Both the position numbers and the translations under genes were made by a program. DNA of 35,175 bases from a virus: the IMG/VR virus record IMGVR_UViG_3300032516_000090, positions 1 to 35,175 of that record; one strand, written 5' to 3'. Of this stretch, positions 3,751 to 30,747 are shown piece by piece (the first letter of the stretch is position 1; every line of letters begins with the position of its first letter). The notes beneath the pieces are model-generated. The model did no database searches. It saw only the letters and a program-made list of their open reading frames with translations, and had not been told where the DNA came from.

Positions 3751-4178
3751 TAGAAATTACTAGAAATCCGGACGTTTTAAAAGTCATCATTGAAGGTGTA
3801 GAAAAAGGCTTGGCGACTATATGTTCAAATGTTAGAGGGCAAGCGGTTTCACTCGCTCCGGTTGATACTAATTTGCTTAAGAACTCAATCACATGGAAGA
3901 CTTCAAAGTCCGGCGGTGGTGGTGACTGGTCGGGATTGCCTGAGCCAAAGGTTATGGAGGGATATGTAGGAACTCCGGTTGAATATGCAGTTTATCAGGA
4001 GTTCGGGACACGCAAAATGAGACCACAGCCATATCTAAGACCGGCAATAGCAATTAAAGCACTTGGAAGAAGAGGCGCGGATGTTATGATTGAAAGACAA
4101 AATGAAGTAGCTAAAGGGAAATTAACACCGGGCAACATTTCAAGTCGTGAAACTTTCGGAGTGGGGAATTTAAAATAA
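3747..4178 (+). CDS. HK97 gp10-like tail/neck protein
   Basis: 143 aa from the ATG at 3747, which overlaps the upstream TGA and has AAGGAA seven bases upstream; the ATG at 3741 sits directly on that Shine-Dalgarno. Family hallmarks are clear: SLAPVDTNLLKNSI in the N-terminal half, then VGTPVEYAVYQEFGTRKMRP and QPYLRPAI, the typical gp10 signature before the C-terminal helix. These proteins sit at the head-tail interface. The stop overlaps the next ATG (TAATG). Confidence 0.85.
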   Translation: MIEITRNPDVLKVIIEGVEKGLATICSNVRGQAVSLAPVDTNLLKNSITWKTSKSGGGGDWSGLPEPKVMEGYVGTPVEYAVYQEFGTRKMRPQPYLRPAIAIKALGRRGADVMIERQNEVAKGKLTPGNISSRETFGVGNLK

Positions 4179-16577: not shown

Positions 16578-16973
16578 TTATAAAAAATTACATAAAATAA
16601 CAATTTTTTTACAATCGTTATTTTTATCAATTTCACCAACCTTTATTTCACCATATGAAACATGTTTATAGTTATCGTCTGGAATAGCACCAGACTGCAC
16701 CAAAGCATCACAAAAGAACTTATCTACAATCGACAATACATTCATCAAGTCAAAAAGCCTCTTGTCACAGGGGCTTACAGTGTAGCTGATGACAACGCTT
16801 TGAAACTTCATTTTTAAGAGTTCAGGATATAACCTGTATAGATTTTCCTTAAAATTTATCTTTGCCTGATTAAGTGTATAGTGATGAGTGTTTCTGTATA
16901 TATTTAGATTTAATGCAAATCGCTTATTATTTACAGTTACATAATCATCTACTAAAAAGATATATTCAATCAT
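16578..16973 (-). CDS. RusA-like Holliday junction resolvase
   Basis: 131 aa from the ATG at 16971-16973, which overlaps the methyltransferase stop (ATGA); an earlier in-frame ATG at 17015 lies inside that gene and is less likely. Family pattern: an N-terminal strand, a middle VVISYTVSPCDKRLFDLMNV, then DKFFCDALVQSGAIPDDNYK. The D..N...D......DD acidic array is the RusA catalytic set. The protein would resolve branched recombination intermediates before packaging. Confidence 0.75.
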   Translation of the reverse strand: MIEYIFLVDDYVTVNNKRFALNLNIYRNTHHYTLNQAKINFKENLYRLYPELLKMKFQSVVISYTVSPCDKRLFDLMNVLSIVDKFFCDALVQSGAIPDDNYKHVSYGEIKVGEIDKNNDCKKIVILCNFL

Positions 16974-18244
16974 TTTATAAAATCCAGTATATGGCTTATA
17001 ACGTCTATAGTCCATCCGTTTCCGAGCATTTTATAACGCTGTGAATTTGAAACATGATTAGTATAATTATCCGGGACCGTTTGAAGTCGTTCGCATTCTA
17101 TTGGTGTTAGTTTTCGCCAAGAAACATGGTCTATGCTTATTTTCGGCTCACGATTACCGCCGCCGCAAGTATTCATACAAGATGATTTTCCCTCTATGCT
17201 ATAAACTCTTTTATTTGATTCATTCCCTGAAATATCAGCTTGACCAACTTCAATACATAAACTATCTTTACTCACACTCGTTAAAGCATCTGACTTTCCG
17301 GTTTCATTTATTTCTAATCGTTGTTCAGTTTTTACAAACACTGTACTCAAATCATCGGCATTACTTGTCAAAAGACAATTTGCTTTCCCGTTATTATTTG
17401 GTTTATAAATTTTTGAATCTATATCTCTCTTAGTGCTGTCTTTTCCGGTTTCCTGTTTTATTTTACGGCGGGTTTCTTTTCCATGCTCCGATCTTGTTTC
17501 AGTAAGCATAAAAGGCGTTTCGGTATTTTCAGGTATAATTATTGGTTTCCCGTTACGTCCACGGAATGCGCCGCCTGTGATGACTAATTGCCGTCTTGAT
17601 TTATCCTGGTAATTTTCGACAGATGAACCTTTAAAATAATTAGCGTCCAGGCAATAAGATTTATCTCTGTCAGTCATTGCGTTCTCTATTATATCTTTCA
17701 ACAAAATCCCTTTATCTTTCGGCTGCGTGACTCCTGGTATATTTGTCCAGTACAATCTATTTCTATTTTGAGCAGAAACTAGAGCGGAATTTATCTGAAT
17801 TGGTTCTAATCTGCCAGTCCGGAATAATTCTCCTTGACTTACACACTCTGGATATATATCTCCGAGTATCGACGAAATAACATCGTTGTATTCTTTTTTC
17901 ATAACAACATTTTCAAGTAAAAAATATTTTGGTTTATAATATTTTAAAATATCTACAAAAGTAAAAAATAATTTGCTGCGTTCATCTTCAAAATTTAATT
18001 GCTTTCCAGCAAAAGAAAAACCCTGACAAGGTGAACCGCCGATGATAATATCAGGTTGCTCGATATTCCAGTTTTCCCATTCTGTAATACTGCCAAGCTG
18101 TACAGTATCGGGATAATTTTTCATGGTAACTTGAATTGCATATTTATCAATTTCACTTGCATAATATTTTTCAACCGGAATACCGGCACGTTGTAAAGCA
18201 ATTTGACCGCACGACATTCCGTCGAAACAGGATAATATTTTCAT
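16970..18244 (-). CDS. DNA (cytosine-5) methyltransferase 1 with long target-recognition region
   Basis: 424 aa. Motif I SCFDGMSCGQIALQRAGI (residues 5-22), motif IV PCQ with catalytic Cys73, ENV at 111-113 and QNRNRLYWTN at 159-168. The C-terminal part has LTPIECERLQTVPDNYT and MLGNGWTIDVISHIL. The region from about 175 to 375 is long for the family and holds at least three similar segments (GKANCLLTSNADDLSTV; GKSDALTSVSKDSLCIEV; GKSSCMNTCGGGNREPKISI). It may be an array of target-recognition modules. It probably protects phage DNA from host restriction. Confidence 0.93.
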   Translation of the reverse strand: MKILSCFDGMSCGQIALQRAGIPVEKYYASEIDKYAIQVTMKNYPDTVQLGSITEWENWNIEQPDIIIGGSPCQGFSFAGKQLNFEDERSKLFFTFVDILKYYKPKYFLLENVVMKKEYNDVISSILGDIYPECVSQGELFRTGRLEPIQINSALVSAQNRNRLYWTNIPGVTQPKDKGILLKDIIENAMTDRDKSYCLDANYFKGSSVENYQDKSRRQLVITGGAFRGRNGKPIIIPENTETPFMLTETRSEHGKETRRKIKQETGKDSTKRDIDSKIYKPNNNGKANCLLTSNADDLSTVFVKTEQRLEINETGKSDALTSVSKDSLCIEVGQADISGNESNKRVYSIEGKSSCMNTCGGGNREPKISIDHVSWRKLTPIECERLQTVPDNYTNHVSNSQRYKMLGNGWTIDVISHILDFIK

Positions 18245-18524: not shown

Positions 18525-18635
18525 TAAAATAAAAAAGGGATAAGATTAGCTATCCTGACCGATTCGCTAAAAATATCCCTTTTGAGATTTTAAAATTGTA
18601 CGCATCCGGTCAGGTAGTGCCTACAATCTCTTTGT
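18525..18635 (-). ncRNA. RNA element A: two hairpins with complementary loops and U tract
   Basis: Transcribed leftward from a promoter ending near 18635. Hairpin 1: ATTGTA (18595-18600) with TACAAT (18622-18627), a G.G mismatch in the RNA, then 3 bp and a 13-nt loop (18605-18617). Linker of 11 nt. Hairpin 2: AAAAGGGATA (18533-18542) with TATCCCTTTT (18574-18583), an inner 5-bp stem (18546-18550/18566-18570) and a 15-nt loop. CGGTCAGG in loop 1 (18607-18614) is perfectly complementary to CCTGACCG in loop 2 (18554-18561). The RNA 3' end is a U6-A-U4 tract. It may be a ~105-nt RNA or an attenuating leader of the BRO-N gene. No known family was recognised. Confidence 0.72.
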
Positions 18636-18670
18636 TCATGAACAATAGAGAAACTGTTATATATTGTCAA
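18632..18670 (-). promoter_or_regulatory. leftward promoter A with palindromic operator
   Basis: On the minus strand: TTGACA (18665-18670), 17-bp spacer, TATTGT (18642-18647). The perfect 14-bp palindrome TTGTTCATGAACAA (18632-18645) covers the -10 end and the predicted start, a natural repressor site. It lies between the winged-helix gene stop and RNA element A. Confidence 0.78.
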
Positions 18671-20775: not shown

Positions 20776-21672
20776 CTAAAATAAATCTGGTTTTAGTTCT
20801 TTAATTTTTTTCGTTGTCGTAGCATTTAACTTTTTAAAATCAATAATCGGGTTATTAAATTCTTTTAGTATACTCCATGACTCTTCTTTTACCAAGCAAT
20901 AAAAAACTACTCCTAAAAGTTTAGGAATAAATTTTGGACTCCACCCGCCGGATTCTAATATTATTTTTGAATATTCTTTTTCAATCAATGTATTTGTAAT
21001 AAACTTTTCAACAATCTTTTCTTCAATACCGGATTTACATTTTATTTCTGCAATTCCAAACATTCCATTTTTACTATGGTTTTCTTTAAATTCATTTTTG
21101 ACTATCTTTGACCATGTTACACGCCCAAAGCAATTTTTATAATCATAGTTTTTAATTACAATTCCTTCACCAGTTCCCATGCCGTCTTTTATGAGATAAA
21201 TATTTTTATCAAGTAATTCAATCAGTTTTTCGGTTGTTGGATTTTTGACTTTGCAAATTGCCGGAATATATTCTAGATTATATTTTTCAAGCAATTTAAT
21301 ATATGTTTCATAATCAAGATACTCATCATTATACATTATATCAAAAATATAAAACTTTCTCCATGATTCATCTCTATATGTTTTTATTGTATGAGGTACA
21401 AGCCATTCGCCATATAAAATATAATCGGGATTATCATTAAATAATTTAATTATATTTTCTTGTTTTAAAACCCACTGATAAAATCCTGCGTTATCAGATT
21501 CAATTTCTAATTCTCTATTTCTTGAACCGGCGCAAATTTCACCGTTAGACATCCATATACTCCCATTTGTGCCGTCAATTTTTGGGAATACATAACACAT
21601 ACCTATTTCTATTCCTCTGGTTTCAATGGTATCGTGTTTTTCTACGTGTTGGTATTTTTTGAATTCGCTCAT
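20776..21672 (-). CDS. RNA ligase, T4 Rnl2-like
   Basis: 298 aa. Nucleotidyltransferase motifs in order: motif I KIDGTNGS (nucleophile Lys31), AGSRNRELE (48-56), motif III-like LYGEWLVPHT (86-95) and FYIFDIMY, motif IV EGIVIK (169-174), motif V WSKIVK (187-192). The C-terminal ~100 residues form a separate helical domain. Such enzymes seal nicked RNA, often tRNA cut by host anticodon nucleases. No kinase/phosphatase partner or tRNA gene is visible here. It overlaps the initiator gene stop (ATGA). Confidence 0.85.
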   Translation of the reverse strand: MSEFKKYQHVEKHDTIETRGIEIGMCYVFPKIDGTNGSIWMSNGEICAGSRNRELEIESDNAGFYQWVLKQENIIKLFNDNPDYILYGEWLVPHTIKTYRDESWRKFYIFDIMYNDEYLDYETYIKLLEKYNLEYIPAICKVKNPTTEKLIELLDKNIYLIKDGMGTGEGIVIKNYDYKNCFGRVTWSKIVKNEFKENHSKNGMFGIAEIKCKSGIEEKIVEKFITNTLIEKEYSKIILESGGWSPKFIPKLLGVVFYCLVKEESWSILKEFNNPIIDFKKLNATTTKKIKELKPDLF

Positions 21673-23017: not shown

Positions 23018-23130
23018 AAATAAAAAAGGCTACCTATAACAGACCGTTTCCGGTTTCCCCCTGTTATAAATAGCCTTTAAGATTTAAAGCGCACAGGCAA
23101 GGGGGAATCAAGCCTCTGCGCTCTTTAATG
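23018..23130 (-). ncRNA. RNA element B: two hairpins with complementary loops and U tract
   Basis: Same plan as element A. Hairpin 1: AGCGCA (23088-23093) with TGCGCT (23117-23122), a G.G mismatch in the RNA, AGGC/GCCT (4 bp) and a 13-nt loop (23099-23111). Linker of 9 nt sharing UUAAAUCU with A. Hairpin 2: AAAGGCTA (23025-23032) with TAGCCTTT (23071-23078), then TATAACAG/CTGTTATA (23035-23042/23061-23068) and a 4-bp inner hairpin. GGGGGAA in loop 1 (23101-23107) is complementary to TTCCCCC (23055-23061) in hairpin 2. The RNA ends in U6-A-U3. It lies just before the KilAC gene; an attenuator or a small RNA are both possible. Confidence 0.72.
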
Positions 23131-23136
23131 TGTTAC

Positions 23137-23164
23137 ACACTATCTTATATAGTGTAAATGTCAA
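23137..23164 (-). promoter_or_regulatory. leftward promoter B with inverted-repeat operator
   Basis: Minus strand: TTGACA (23159-23164), 16-bp spacer, TAGTGT (23137-23142), a weaker -10 than in promoter A. A perfect 7-bp inverted repeat, ACACTAT (23137-23143) and ATAGTGT (23149-23155) with a 5-bp spacer, covers the -10 and part of the spacer and is a probable operator. Its sequence differs from the operator of promoter A. Confidence 0.6.
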
Positions 23165-23821
23165 TCAAAATAATGTTCCTTGACTGCGTAAAGTTTCCAA
23201 TCGTTCACAGCTTGACTTGTGATAGTCCGCGTCTTTTTCTATTGCCAGAAATTCAAATTTTTCTAAATGGCAAGCACAGGCAAGCGAACCACTGCCGGAG
23301 TGAGTATCAATAATCTTGTCTCCGGTTTTAGCGTAGTTTTGTAATAGCCAACGATAAAGGGCGACGGGTTTTTGATTTGGATGTTGTAATATATCTTTTT
23401 GTTTCATATTTTCTTGAATCATACCTTGCCATTTATATTTAAACTTTCTAACCGCAGAATTAAACGAAGTCCATGCAAGTTCACAATCTGCGAAGTCTGT
23501 CAATCCGTTGTCCTTATCCCAAACAATCCAACAGCTTGAATCATGCGGAATTTTACTTATAAAATGATTAGCCCCAAATATGATTTGATTCTTTGATATT
23601 CTAAATAATTCATCAAAGTATTTTTTATCAGGTGAACAATTGTCATATTTTACTTTATCGGAATAATTTTTAGAAGCGGTTAATTTACCTCTTGTATGAT
23701 TTTTTCTGCCGTCCTCTTTTATGCCATAGGGAGGATCAATAATTCCTATATTAAAATATTTATCCGGTATCGTTGCCATAATATCCATGCAGTCAGCTAA
23801 TATAATCTCATTTAGTTTCAT
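23165..23821 (-). CDS. DNA methyltransferase, N6-adenine or N4-cytosine type
   Basis: 218 aa, GGAGG three bases before the ATG. Motif IV DPPYGI at residues 29-34. The S-adenosylmethionine-binding motif DTHSGSGSLA follows near 172-181, after HPNQKPVALYRWLL. So motif IV comes before motif I, as in beta-class enzymes. DPPY favours adenine N6 methylation. No restriction endonuclease is adjacent, so it is an orphan protective methyltransferase. The stop lies one base after the -35 of promoter B. Confidence 0.9.
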   Translation of the reverse strand: MKLNEIILADCMDIMATIPDKYFNIGIIDPPYGIKEDGRKNHTRGKLTASKNYSDKVKYDNCSPDKKYFDELFRISKNQIIFGANHFISKIPHDSSCWIVWDKDNGLTDFADCELAWTSFNSAVRKFKYKWQGMIQENMKQKDILQHPNQKPVALYRWLLQNYAKTGDKIIDTHSGSGSLACACHLEKFEFLAIEKDADYHKSSCERLETLRSQGTLF

Positions 23822-26991: not shown

Positions 26992-27379
26992 TTTTCACCT
27001 TCTTTTATTAGATTTGAGATCATTTTAATATATGTGTAATACTCTGCTATTTGTTCATCTGTATAATTATTTTCTTTTCCAATTGATTCATATTTTTCAA
27101 GCCATTCATCAATAGAATGTTTTTCACAGCCGATATGAATTATTTTATCTATGTAAAAAACTGAATGGGCTGAACCGGCAATATTTAATATCGGTAATTT
27201 TATACCTTTAGCACCTCCCAGATTAGCACCTCCCATATTAGCACCTCCATATTAGCACCTCTCAGATTAGCACCTCTCAGATCAGCACCTCTATTTTTTT
27301 CAAGTGCATCTCTAATACTTCCATACTCTCCGGCGATAATAATATTACCGGTAAATCTGTTTTTAATCTCGATATTCAT
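26988..27379 (-). pseudogene. pentapeptide-repeat phage protein, frameshifted in its repeats
   Basis: From the ATG at 27377-27379 (GGAGG upstream) the frame encodes IEIKNRFTGNIIIAGEYGSI, then GADLRGANLRGANM, after which it leaves the frame and stops. The rest of the family protein continues in another frame (GGANLGGAKGIKLP, SAHSVFYIDKIIHIGCEKHS, ending at 26988). One missing base in the 15-bp repeat (ATGGAGG where the next copy has ATGGGAGG) accounts for it. Intact relatives have N-terminal part, repeats and this C-terminal part in one frame. First gene of the leftward operon. Confidence 0.82.
27215..27295 (-). repeat. 15-bp coding repeats of the pentapeptide gene
   Basis: About five near-identical 15-bp units (core GGTGCTAATMTG on the minus strand) encode RGAN/GGAN pentapeptides. 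One unit, around 27240-27250, is 14 bp and causes the frameshift. Such repeats expand, contract and slip readily. Confidence 0.8.
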
Positions 27380-28077: not shown

Positions 28078-28281
28078 ATGCAAATAGTAGACTGCTCGGG
28101 ATGTGGCAATTGTATGGACCTCATAGAGGAAAAGAAATGCCCACGAAATGCGATATCAATGAATAAATACCATGGTTATGCAAATTGTGTAATTGACTCT
28201 AAAAAGTGTAATAACTGCGGATTGTGCAAAAAGAATATTGATTGTCTTAACGATTGCTTTACAGATGATGAAAAGGAATGA
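28078..28281 (+). CDS. ferredoxin-like protein, two cysteine clusters
   Basis: 67 aa with nine cysteines placed like a bacterial 2[4Fe-4S] ferredoxin: C6-x2-C9-x2-C12 (CSGCGNC), C21-Pro (KCPRNAI), then C44-x2-C47-x2-C50 (CNNCGLC), C56 and C60, plus C37. The CxxCxxC...CP pattern normally binds an iron-sulfur cluster and carries electrons. Its end overlaps the start of the methyltransferase gene (ATGA at 28278-28281). Phage ferredoxins are known mainly from cyanophages, so this context is unusual. A zinc-binding protein cannot be excluded. Confidence 0.65.
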   Translation: MQIVDCSGCGNCMDLIEEKKCPRNAISMNKYHGYANCVIDSKKCNNCGLCKKNIDCLNDCFTDDEKE

Positions 28282-29123
28282 ATATATTGAGTTGCTTTGA
28301 CGGAATGTCATGTGGTCAAATTGCCTTGAATAAAGCCGGCATTAAATATGATAATTACTATGCAAGTGAGATAAAAAAGCATGCCATCGCAGTAACACAA
28401 TATAATTACCCGGATACAATTCAACTTGGAGACATAACAAAAGTTAAAAGTTCAGATTTACCACAGATTGATTTATTGATAGGTGGATCACCTTGTCAGG
28501 ATTTTAGCAGAGCAAATTCAGAAAGAAAAGGTCTTGACGGTGTAAAAAGTTCTTTGTTTTATGAATTTATCAGATTATATAATGAATTGAAACCAAAATA
28601 TTTTTTACTTGAAAATGTGATAATGGAAAGTAAAGGTTATAATATTATATCTGAATTGATGGGGACAGAGCCTGTTAGAATGTGCGGAAGTTTAGTTTCG
28701 GGAGCTTTAAGAGATAGGCTTTACTGGACAAATATAGGTGATGAAGAGCTTGACTTATTCGGGAATAGAAAGTCAGCAATTCCACAACCAAAAGACAAAA
28801 AGATAAAATTAAATAATGTTTTGGAATACGGATATTCAGACAGACAAAAACACACTTGTTTAAATGTTTCATGTGGTAAAGATGCAAGTCAGAGATACAT
28901 GATTCATCGGTATAATACGACCGGAATGACAACCGTTATTTATAAAGATGAAAAAATGGATTTAAACGATGGTTTAAGATATTGCACACAAAGAGAACTT
29001 GAAAGACTGCATAATATACCTGAAGGATATACTGATATATTAAATAAATATCAGGCGGGAAATTTAATTGGTGACGGCTGGACGGTTGATATTGTATCCC
29101 ATATATTTAGTTATATAAACTAA
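28278..29123 (+). CDS. DNA (cytosine-5) methyltransferase 2
   Basis: 281 aa. Motif I SCFDGMSCGQIALNKAGI (residues 5-22), PCQ with Cys73, ENV at 112-114, DRLYWTNIGD, and the C-terminal CTQRELERLHNIPEGYT and LIGDGWTVDIVSHIF. Nearly the same motif blocks as methyltransferase 1 but with a much shorter recognition region (about residues 165-240). The two are paralogues or separate acquisitions with different specificities, on opposite strands. Translationally coupled to the ferredoxin-like gene. Confidence 0.92.
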   Translation: MNILSCFDGMSCGQIALNKAGIKYDNYYASEIKKHAIAVTQYNYPDTIQLGDITKVKSSDLPQIDLLIGGSPCQDFSRANSERKGLDGVKSSLFYEFIRLYNELKPKYFLLENVIMESKGYNIISELMGTEPVRMCGSLVSGALRDRLYWTNIGDEELDLFGNRKSAIPQPKDKKIKLNNVLEYGYSDRQKHTCLNVSCGKDASQRYMIHRYNTTGMTTVIYKDEKMDLNDGLRYCTQRELERLHNIPEGYTDILNKYQAGNLIGDGWTVDIVSHIFSYIN

Positions 29124-29529: not shown

Positions 29530-30747
29530 ATGGGTAAGTTTGTTGAGGTGCTTTTAGAAGGGGGAAGTAGATCTGGAAAAACTTTCATTGCTTGTTATGC
29601 AATTATAGCAAGGGCTTTAAAATACAAAAACTCTCACCATTTAATCGTCCGGAAACATTTCAACCACATTAAACAGTCGATATGGTATCAAACACTCCCG
29701 TCTGTTCTTAGAATTGCCTTTGATAACTATAAAGTCAGGGAAAATAAATCTGACTGGTTTATTGAGTTTCCAAATGGCTCTCAAATATGGATAGCAGGGA
29801 CAGACGACAAAGAACGGATTGAAAAGATTCTTGGTTCAGAGTGGGATACTATTTACATGAATGAAGCTTCACAAATGGGCTATAATATTTATGAGATACT
29901 TAAAACCAGACTCAATCCACAGCAGGGAATTAAACCGTTATTCTTGATTGACTATAACCCCCCGTCAAAAAAGCATTGGGGCTTTAAAGTATTCAGATTA
30001 AAGGTAAATCCTGAAAACGACACTCCATTAAGAAATCCAGACAGATACACGTTTATTAAAATGAATCCCACAGACAACGCTGATAATCTGTCTAATAGTT
30101 ATATAGAAACGCTTGAGTCGATGTCAGAAAAGAACCGGAAAAGGTTTTTAGATGGTAACTACTCAGACGATGCTGAGGGTGCATTATGGAAACGGGAATG
30201 GATTGTAAAGAATCGTCTTGCTTTAATGCCTGAAAATATAATCCGCTGCGTTGTTGCTATAGATCCGAATGTAACAGCCGATAAAAATGTCAGTGAAAAT
30301 ACAGACGAAGCGGGAATTATAACAGTGGGACAAATCAGGATTGACAAAGACGACCATTATATTATTATGAGTGATGACTCAATGCCGGGGCTTTCATGGG
30401 GCGAAAAGTCGGTTGAATTATATCATAAATTCAAAGCTGATAAGATAATCGGAGAGGTCAATCAGGGAGGAGACCTGATTGAAATGAATGTCCGGAATTA
30501 TGATAGGAATGTTTCTTACGATTCAGTCAGGGCAACAAGAGGAAAAGAAGTCAGAGCCGAGCCGATAGCTGATCTATATAGACGGGGGTTTGTCCATCAT
30601 ATTGGAGAGTTTCCGGATCTTGAATCAGAGTTATGTGAATGGACTCCCGGCGCGAACAGGTCTCCGAATAGGCTTGACGCTCTTGTATGGGGGGTTTCTT
30701 ATCTTGCAGGATTAGGTGAAGCTTATGCAAAAATTAGAAAATGGTGA
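29530..30747 (+). CDS. terL: terminase large subunit (TerL)
   Basis: 405 aa from the ATG at 29530. Walker A GGSRSGKT (11-18), Walker B DTIYMNEAS (106-114), coupling-type LDYNPPS-like region (FLIDYNPPSKKHWG). The nuclease domain has VVAIDPNVTAD, a typical first Asp, and a C-terminal RLDALVWGVSYLAGL. The frame is open upstream to 29464 and reads TFNKTSKQKDAIRL, the KQ adenine-binding motif normally at the N-terminus. No ATG, GTG or TTG precedes it, so the start may be non-AUG or reached by frameshift from TerS. The motor packages DNA into the prohead. Confidence 0.93.
   Translation: MGKFVEVLLEGGSRSGKTFIACYAIIARALKYKNSHHLIVRKHFNHIKQSIWYQTLPSVLRIAFDNYKVRENKSDWFIEFPNGSQIWIAGTDDKERIEKILGSEWDTIYMNEASQMGYNIYEILKTRLNPQQGIKPLFLIDYNPPSKKHWGFKVFRLKVNPENDTPLRNPDRYTFIKMNPTDNADNLSNSYIETLESMSEKNRKRFLDGNYSDDAEGALWKREWIVKNRLALMPENIIRCVVAIDPNVTADKNVSENTDEAGIITVGQIRIDKDDHYIIMSDDSMPGLSWGEKSVELYHKFKADKIIGEVNQGGDLIEMNVRNYDRNVSYDSVRATRGKEVRAEPIADLYRRGFVHHIGEFPDLESELCEWTPGANRSPNRLDALVWGVSYLAGLGEAYAKIRKW

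Follow-up and report, generated by a model that had tools for sequence, protein, structure and literature searches.

The RNA element examined here, element B, lies on the minus strand of a 35-kb virus record, the whole of which (35,175 nucleotides) is referred to as the window. A search of the record's own DNA found it there in a single copy. It is flanked by a DNA methylase gene and an antirepressor gene, both on the minus strand. Read from 5′ to 3′, a -35 sequence with an inverted repeat is followed by hairpin 1 (H1), a 7-nt linker (AAAUCUU), hairpin 2 (H2), the tract U6-A-U3, a Shine-Dalgarno sequence, and the ATG start codon. The downstream protein matched the Pfam families HTH_17 (6.6e-7) and ANT (8.5e-17) and the PHROG annotation 'anti-repressor Ant'. 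Element A, at a distance of 4.5 kb on this strand, has its parts in the identical order and precedes a gene for a Bro-N antirepressor-type protein. Thus, A and B occupy the position of 5′ leaders of antirepressor genes, with the H2 terminator directly before the Shine-Dalgarno sequence, a setting that the preliminary description of this DNA had overlooked. The coordinates are listed in Table 1.

Table 1. Features of elements B and A and of their neighbouring genes in the window.
Feature	Position	Strand	Basis or remark
DNA methylase gene next to B	23165-23821	minus	
Element B (RNA leader)	23124-23018	minus	read from sequence
B promoter region (putative)	23137-23164	minus	sequence reading; function assigned by position and by analogy with relatives
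B -35, TTGACA	23164-23159	minus	clear
B -10, TAGTGT	23142-23137	minus	weak
B inverted repeat, ACACTAT-N5-ATAGTGT	23155-23137	minus	overlaps the -10
B hairpin 1 (H1)	23086-23124	minus	8 bp, G.G mismatch, 4 bp, 13-nt loop UUGAUUCCCCCUU
B loop-1 kissing sequence, UUCCCCC	23101-23107	minus	complementary to 23061-23055
B hairpin 2 (H2), predicted terminator stem	23025-23078	minus	long lower stem, 7-nt 5′ bulge, ACCG-GAAA-CGGU cap
B target bulge inside H2, GGGGGAA	23055-23061	minus	class consensus GG-NNNN-A
B terminator U-tract, U6-A-U3	23018-23027	minus	overlaps the end of the H2 stem
B Shine-Dalgarno sequence, AGGATGG	23016-23010	minus	directly after the U-tract
Gene downstream of B, HTH_17 + ANT/KilAC antirepressor, 196 aa	22412-23002	minus	Pfam, PHROG
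A promoter, TTGACA-N17-TATTGT	18642-18670	minus	among the listed promoter-like sites
A palindrome, TTGTTCATGAACAA	18645-18632	minus	overlaps the promoter end
A hairpin 1, 13-nt loop CUACCUGACCGGA	18593-18629	minus	sequence and structure scan
A loop-1 kissing part, CCUGACCG	18614-18607	minus	complementary to CGGUCAGG in H2
A hairpin 2 (predicted terminator)	18526-18583	minus	apical CGGUCAGG at 18561-18554
A tail, U6-A-U4	18536-18526	minus	followed by Shine-Dalgarno AAGGCGG
Gene downstream of A, Bro-N antirepressor-type protein, 85 aa	18255-18512	minus	Pfam Bro-N 1.4e-9; PHROG anti-repressor 7e-22

The product of the Bro-N gene behind A is without the C-terminal (ANT) domain of its relatives, and the gene may be a remnant whose leader has stayed intact. 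The gene cluster of the antirepressor also contains an RNA ligase family gene (20776-21672; PF09414, PHROG RNA ligase). A Pfam-confirmed C5 cytosine DNA methylase gene is present at 16970-18244, and a similar-looking second ORF at 28278-29123 lies on the opposite strand. Short tandem repeats with a pentapeptide-repeat-like protein (MGGANLGGAKG) are found on the minus strand at 27190-27310, where the frame seems to be broken near 27237.

The computed folding energy of element B was -48.6 kcal/mol, compared to a mean of -27.2 kcal/mol for dinucleotide shuffles (z = -6.25), and none of 200 shuffled sequences was as stable. H1 reads, from 5′ to 3′, AGAGCGCA, the G.G mismatch, AGGC, the 13-nt loop UUGAUUCCCCCUU, GCCU, G, and UGCGCUUU. 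The preliminary description had given this hairpin as 6 bp, a G.G mismatch, 4 bp, and a 13-nt loop, which is right and can be extended by two more basal pairs. H2 with its U6-A-U3 tract is likewise present, at 23078-23018 on the minus strand. The 7-base match claimed for loops 1 and 2 holds as far as the complementarity of UUCCCCC and GGGGGAA is concerned (computed loop-loop duplex, -13.9 kcal/mol), but the target in B is not an apical loop; it bulges out on the 5′ side beneath a 4-bp hairpin with a GAAA cap. Apart from B itself, the window contains exact copies of this pair of 7-mers only within the terminase gene, at 29560. A promoter with an inverted-repeat operator had also been proposed. 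The -35 sequence of B is indeed clear and the inverted repeats of A and B are real, but the -10 sequence of B is weak and absent from the listed promoter-like sites, whereas the A promoter is among them. The exact inverted repeat of B occurs once in the window, and neither repeat recurs there above chance, which leaves the term 'operator' unproven.

Element A had been described as following the same plan. The order of its parts is kept and its loop match is apical, but the upper stem of its H1 consists of three Watson-Crick pairs instead of four, and its tail is U6-A-U4. From A and B together, covariation inside one genome had been deduced, an argument that did not hold. The A/B alignment contained 77 identical positions, compared to a mean of 70 and a maximum of 78 for shuffled B. 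Since the alignment is thus no better than one with shuffled sequence, the two elements cannot show covariation. The view that architecture rather than sequence is conserved is supported instead by compensatory changes in the relatives described below.

The window was scanned independently of ORFs for the combination of H1, a terminator, and a loop match. The scan returned A (31.5) and B (30.4) only. Across forty windows with shuffled dinucleotides, 13 weaker candidates turned up, all scoring below 25, and 167 kb of control phage DNA contained three weaker matches (22.2-25.6), none with leader anatomy. Elsewhere in the window, each of the A and B loops had an isolated match of 7-8 bases only. 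We conclude that the sequence analyses confirm element B as a real leader RNA that is predicted to fold into two hairpins with matching loops. None of the Rfam searches, whether at the gathering or at permissive thresholds, produced a credible family for the element, and B as a DNA query against phage records found nothing. In pattern searches of viral contigs, the sole true match to the A-type loops was the L002 contig, and the sole true match to the hairpin of the Bacteroides phage B40-8 was B40-8 itself.

The closest antirepressor, that of L002, is 81% identical and is preceded by an A-type element with a kissing core changed on both sides. This element is homologous to A, with 89 identical positions compared to a shuffle maximum of 77, and its kissing pairs differ from those of A by a double compensatory change (CCUGACCG/CGGUCAGG versus CCUAGCCG/CGGCUAGG). 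Both kissing sides also change together within the close pair L174/L165. The same plan with unrelated loops was found before antirepressor genes in L002, L018, L023, L168, L119, L118, L111, L117, and L174/L165, as well as at the BroN-ANT (second, Bro-N) copy in L132 and in the Bacteroides phages B40-8 and BF702P1. Members L018, L023, B40-8, BF702P1, L105, L111, L117-L119, L168, L132, and L174/L165 were reached via more distant antirepressors. Although the letters of the relatives' loops are unrelated, the match still spans 7-9 bp. In L078, the element precedes an AntA gene and has a palindromic loop with a weaker match, and the kissing helix of BF766P1 (L076) contains one mismatch. The L119 phage carries two further copies before non-antirepressor early genes; these and the first copy of L105 have 6-bp matches only and were graded as probable, not sure.

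A leader of the A type is followed by Bro-N in the window and by HTH_17-ANT in L002, and two closely similar leaders, with 92% identity at the DNA level, are followed by Rha-ANT (B40-8) and Bro-N-ANT (BF702P1). Like leaders before unlike N-terminal domains indicate that the leader travels independently of the N-terminal domain of the protein. H1 is closely preceded by a promoter-like sequence in most members and would thus be the first hairpin of the transcript. In two leaders of L130 (2480-2600 and 3105-3240) and in the L105 leader (1400-1540), the linker contains an additional hairpin, and a second promoter-like site is located between H1 and H2. These second sites read TTGACA-N17/18-CATAAT in two cases and have a weaker -10 in the third, with the -35 inside the 3′ arm of H1. 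The six matched bases in the L130 and L105 leaders form the apical loop of a small H2 hairpin, or nearly the whole of it.

Other antirepressor leaders looked different. In the Bro-N leaders of the Bacteroidetes phages L010 and L011 (~3800-3990), the 5′ end of the predicted transcript is near-complementary to a hairpin loop region shortly before the start codon (15 of 17 bases in L011), and these leaders are possibly an unstructured cousin of the kissing-leader plan. Together with the leaders of L085/L171, they have long 5′-end matches to a downstream hairpin and no clear H1, and they were not counted. A strong hairpin or terminator without a loop match is located shortly before the antirepressor start in L158 (upstream of 1519), L021 (4001), and L143/L145 (1363); leader terminators may be commoner at antirepressor genes than the kissing type. 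No such element was found in the antirepressor leaders of Exiguobacterium, Geobacillus, Lysinibacillus, Helicobacter, Fusobacterium, Lactobacillus, and Faecalibacterium phages or in the leader of the second antirepressor of B40-8. The antirepressor alignment, searched against 393 genomes of the phylum of Treponema vincentii, found relatives in 20. At the best loci of these 20 genomes, the detector returned no convincing element and one weak candidate, in a Spirochaetaceae MAG (L028/L044). The related antirepressors in Spirochaetota genomes are a mere hint at the host.

Three relatives, L119, L023, and L168, share the exact upper H2 design of B. The resulting B subclass of four sequences has a 7-nt 5′ bulge (GG-NNNN-A) below a tetraloop-capped 4-bp hairpin and a loop 1 of the form U-NNNN-CC. 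In a composite alignment of loop-1 match, fixed spacer, bulge, and cap, all 44 of 44 cells were paired and 8 of 11 pairs had changes on both sides; sliding the pairing destroyed this pattern. The compensatory changes concerned four of the seven kissing pairs and all four pairs of the cap hairpin, which had played no part in finding the members. The preliminary description had named an alignment of homologues with no covariation beyond chance as the result that would speak against a conserved structure. Our check, a count of structure pairs in simplified form and not R-scape, did not give such a result.

Among 2,006 distinct ORFs of the loci collected up to that stage, the full plan was present upstream of 10 of 118 antirepressor-like ORFs, compared to 8 of 1,888 others (Fisher 1e-8), and two of these eight cases are A itself and an L118 operon ending in an antirepressor. 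A less biased test considered leaders chosen solely for a terminator before the start codon. A strong loop match was found in 6 of 21 antirepressor leaders selected in this way, with 0.27 expected from shuffled upstream DNA, and in 2 of 35 other leaders, which were again A and L118. Of 15 elements, 14 had their cognate loop as the best or tied-best partner. The sum over the cognate pairings, 277.5, exceeded all of 100,000 random pairings (mean 146, maximum 212.5), a permutation that is partly circular because several members had been picked through their loop match; the terminator-selected leaders and the covariation of the cap hairpin are less biased. Furthermore, elements with a short H1 stem have a long linker (Spearman -0.67, permutation p 0.003, n = 16, with lengths partly measured by hand and sequences that are related), as expected if the two loops meet within one molecule. 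Most of the sampled antirepressor genes are without the element. The members are few and were sampled through antirepressor proteins, so that neither the overall spread of the element nor its non-antirepressor share can be judged from this set.

We favour, with a probability of roughly 0.6, a model in which element B, as the 5′ leader of the antirepressor gene, acts as a kissing-loop transcription attenuator. The leader position, the predicted structure, the loop-loop complementarity with compensatory change, and the association with antirepressors are directly supported by the data above. Beyond these, we infer that RNA polymerase starts a few bases before H1, which would present an antisense loop of 7-9 nt. 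H2 with its U-tract, an intrinsic terminator between promoter and gene as predicted from sequence only, would have the complement of that antisense loop in a loop or bulge of its own. H1 and H2 would then kiss in the nascent RNA in vivo, most simply within one molecule and hence in cis, and the presumed regulatory effect would be to favour the terminated form. The default product would be a stable RNA of ~110 nt. The antirepressor would be made only by readthrough, for example upon very high promoter activity at induction or when kissing is disturbed. Since a short variable 'address' provides the match, each copy would recognise itself, and A and B should not cross-talk.

Several observations count against an attenuator. 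Kissing does not disrupt the terminator, and a search of 12 elements for antiterminator pairing of H1 or the linker with the 5′ arm of the terminator found none (p 0.33-0.99). The route by which kissing would change termination is therefore not evident, and the pairing might just as well serve RNA stability or processing. The weak -10 of B, the mismatch in L076, the many antirepressor genes without the element, and the L119 copies before other genes likewise weigh against the model.

The main rival to attenuation in cis is silencing in trans in the manner of C4. The terminated leader would be a stable small RNA that uses its loop 1 to bind loop 2 on further copies of the transcript, from a superinfecting or replicating phage, and so silences the antirepressor, which would confer homotypic immunity with a phage-specific loop code. 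We regard this as possible, if rather unlikely. The setting is that of C4 in P1/P7, a phage antisense RNA that is processed and restrains antirepressor synthesis via short loops, of which a few bases separate P1 from P7 (PMC5320573; PMC12197685). The loops are orthogonal within one phage (A/B and the L119 copies), and the second promoter-like site of three elements (L105, L130 at 2511 and 3105) would yield transcripts with the target and without H1. The target is, however, part of the terminator and covers no Shine-Dalgarno site, and the compensating lengths of H1 and linker suggest contact in cis. A bolder reading, which we likewise consider rather unlikely, is a general phage 'address' system, in which the small RNA of each copy would recognise its own terminator loop alone, both in cis and in trans, the RNA level would report copy number and set homotypic immunity and lysis timing, and one phage would hold several addresses.

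We consider it improbable that the leader RNA binds or holds the antirepressor protein like an RNA antitoxin (compare RCd22-AbiF and ToxI-ToxN), with the terminator setting the ratio of RNA to mRNA. The order promoter, structured RNA, intrinsic terminator, ribosome-binding site, and ORF is that of RCd22-abiF, a system in which the terminator stops most transcription and the RNA has an additional effect on the protein (PMC12373285). The downstream proteins, however, share no common domain: Bro-N only behind A, HTH + ANT behind B, Rha + ANT in B40-8, AntA in L078 and, by resemblance, in L174, and non-antirepressor ORFs in L119. A-type leaders precede Bro-N in the window yet HTH_17-ANT in L002, and what is conserved is loop-loop pairing rather than a protein-readable sequence. 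An attenuator of the pT181 type, with mutually exclusive terminator and antiterminator structures flipped by an antisense RNA, appears very unlikely; kissing hairpins do start antisense attenuation in pT181 (PMC4878617), but the 12 elements lack antiterminator pairing, and no opposite-strand antisense gene was noticed. Least probable of all is an ordinary terminator of the upstream gene with a chance loop match, for even if intergenic terminators are common and both flanking genes lie on the same strand, a promoter-like site separates the upstream gene from H1, the match recurs across unrelated phages, and shuffles and 167 kb of control DNA produced weaker candidates only.

Antirepressors switch prophages toward lysis. 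As a widespread leader with variable sequence and preserved pairing, the element would represent a direct, testable control point on them, and its presence in isolated Bacteroides fragilis phages makes it testable in culture. Ordinary sequence and Rfam searches would miss such a leader because only its plan is conserved. In the literature accessible without subscription, we found neither a description of such a leader nor, for these phages, an account of post-initiation restraint of antirepressors. The A/B-type leaders, whose plan recurs in unrelated phages with other loop letters, appear to form a hitherto undescribed family of RNA brakes on lysis genes of phages.

Among known systems, the C4 RNA of P1/P7 (RF01695) is nearest in biology. 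It is a phage RNA tied to antirepressor control, it relies on short loops that provide a loop code between related phages, and it is located upstream of the antirepressor gene and co-transcribed with it. The elements described here also lie upstream of antirepressor genes, with which they would be co-transcribed. Unlike these, C4 has three stems, binds the target mRNA through its loops a′ and b′, in the case of b′ partly over the ribosome-binding site, and is excised by RNase P. The present elements comprise only two hairpins and have their target inside their own terminator. The C4 covariance model matched neither A, B, nor the L002 element at the gathering threshold or up to E=10, and it matched none of the relatives at the gathering threshold. 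The leaders of RCd22/abiF and of type III toxin-antitoxin systems are nearest in layout, with a promoter, a structured RNA, a terminator, a ribosome-binding site, and a gene, and most transcripts of the known cases stop at the terminator. Those RNAs bind the encoded protein and contain repeated motifs, whereas here the complementary loops are conserved, inspection of the leader revealed no repeated antitoxin motif, and the downstream proteins are varied, being antirepressors of several families. In mechanism, pT181 and related plasmid attenuators come closest, since they attenuate within a leader, use kissing hairpins, and contain a mismatch inside a hairpin. They need an antiterminator, however, while we found neither an antiterminator nor a separate antisense gene, and the antisense loop resides in the same leader. 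Finally, antirepressor synthesis in phage P22 is also restricted by a small RNA of the phage, sar (PMC12197685). The sar RNA pairs with ant mRNA and disturbs translation initiation, whereas in the present case the RNA is the antirepressor's own leader.
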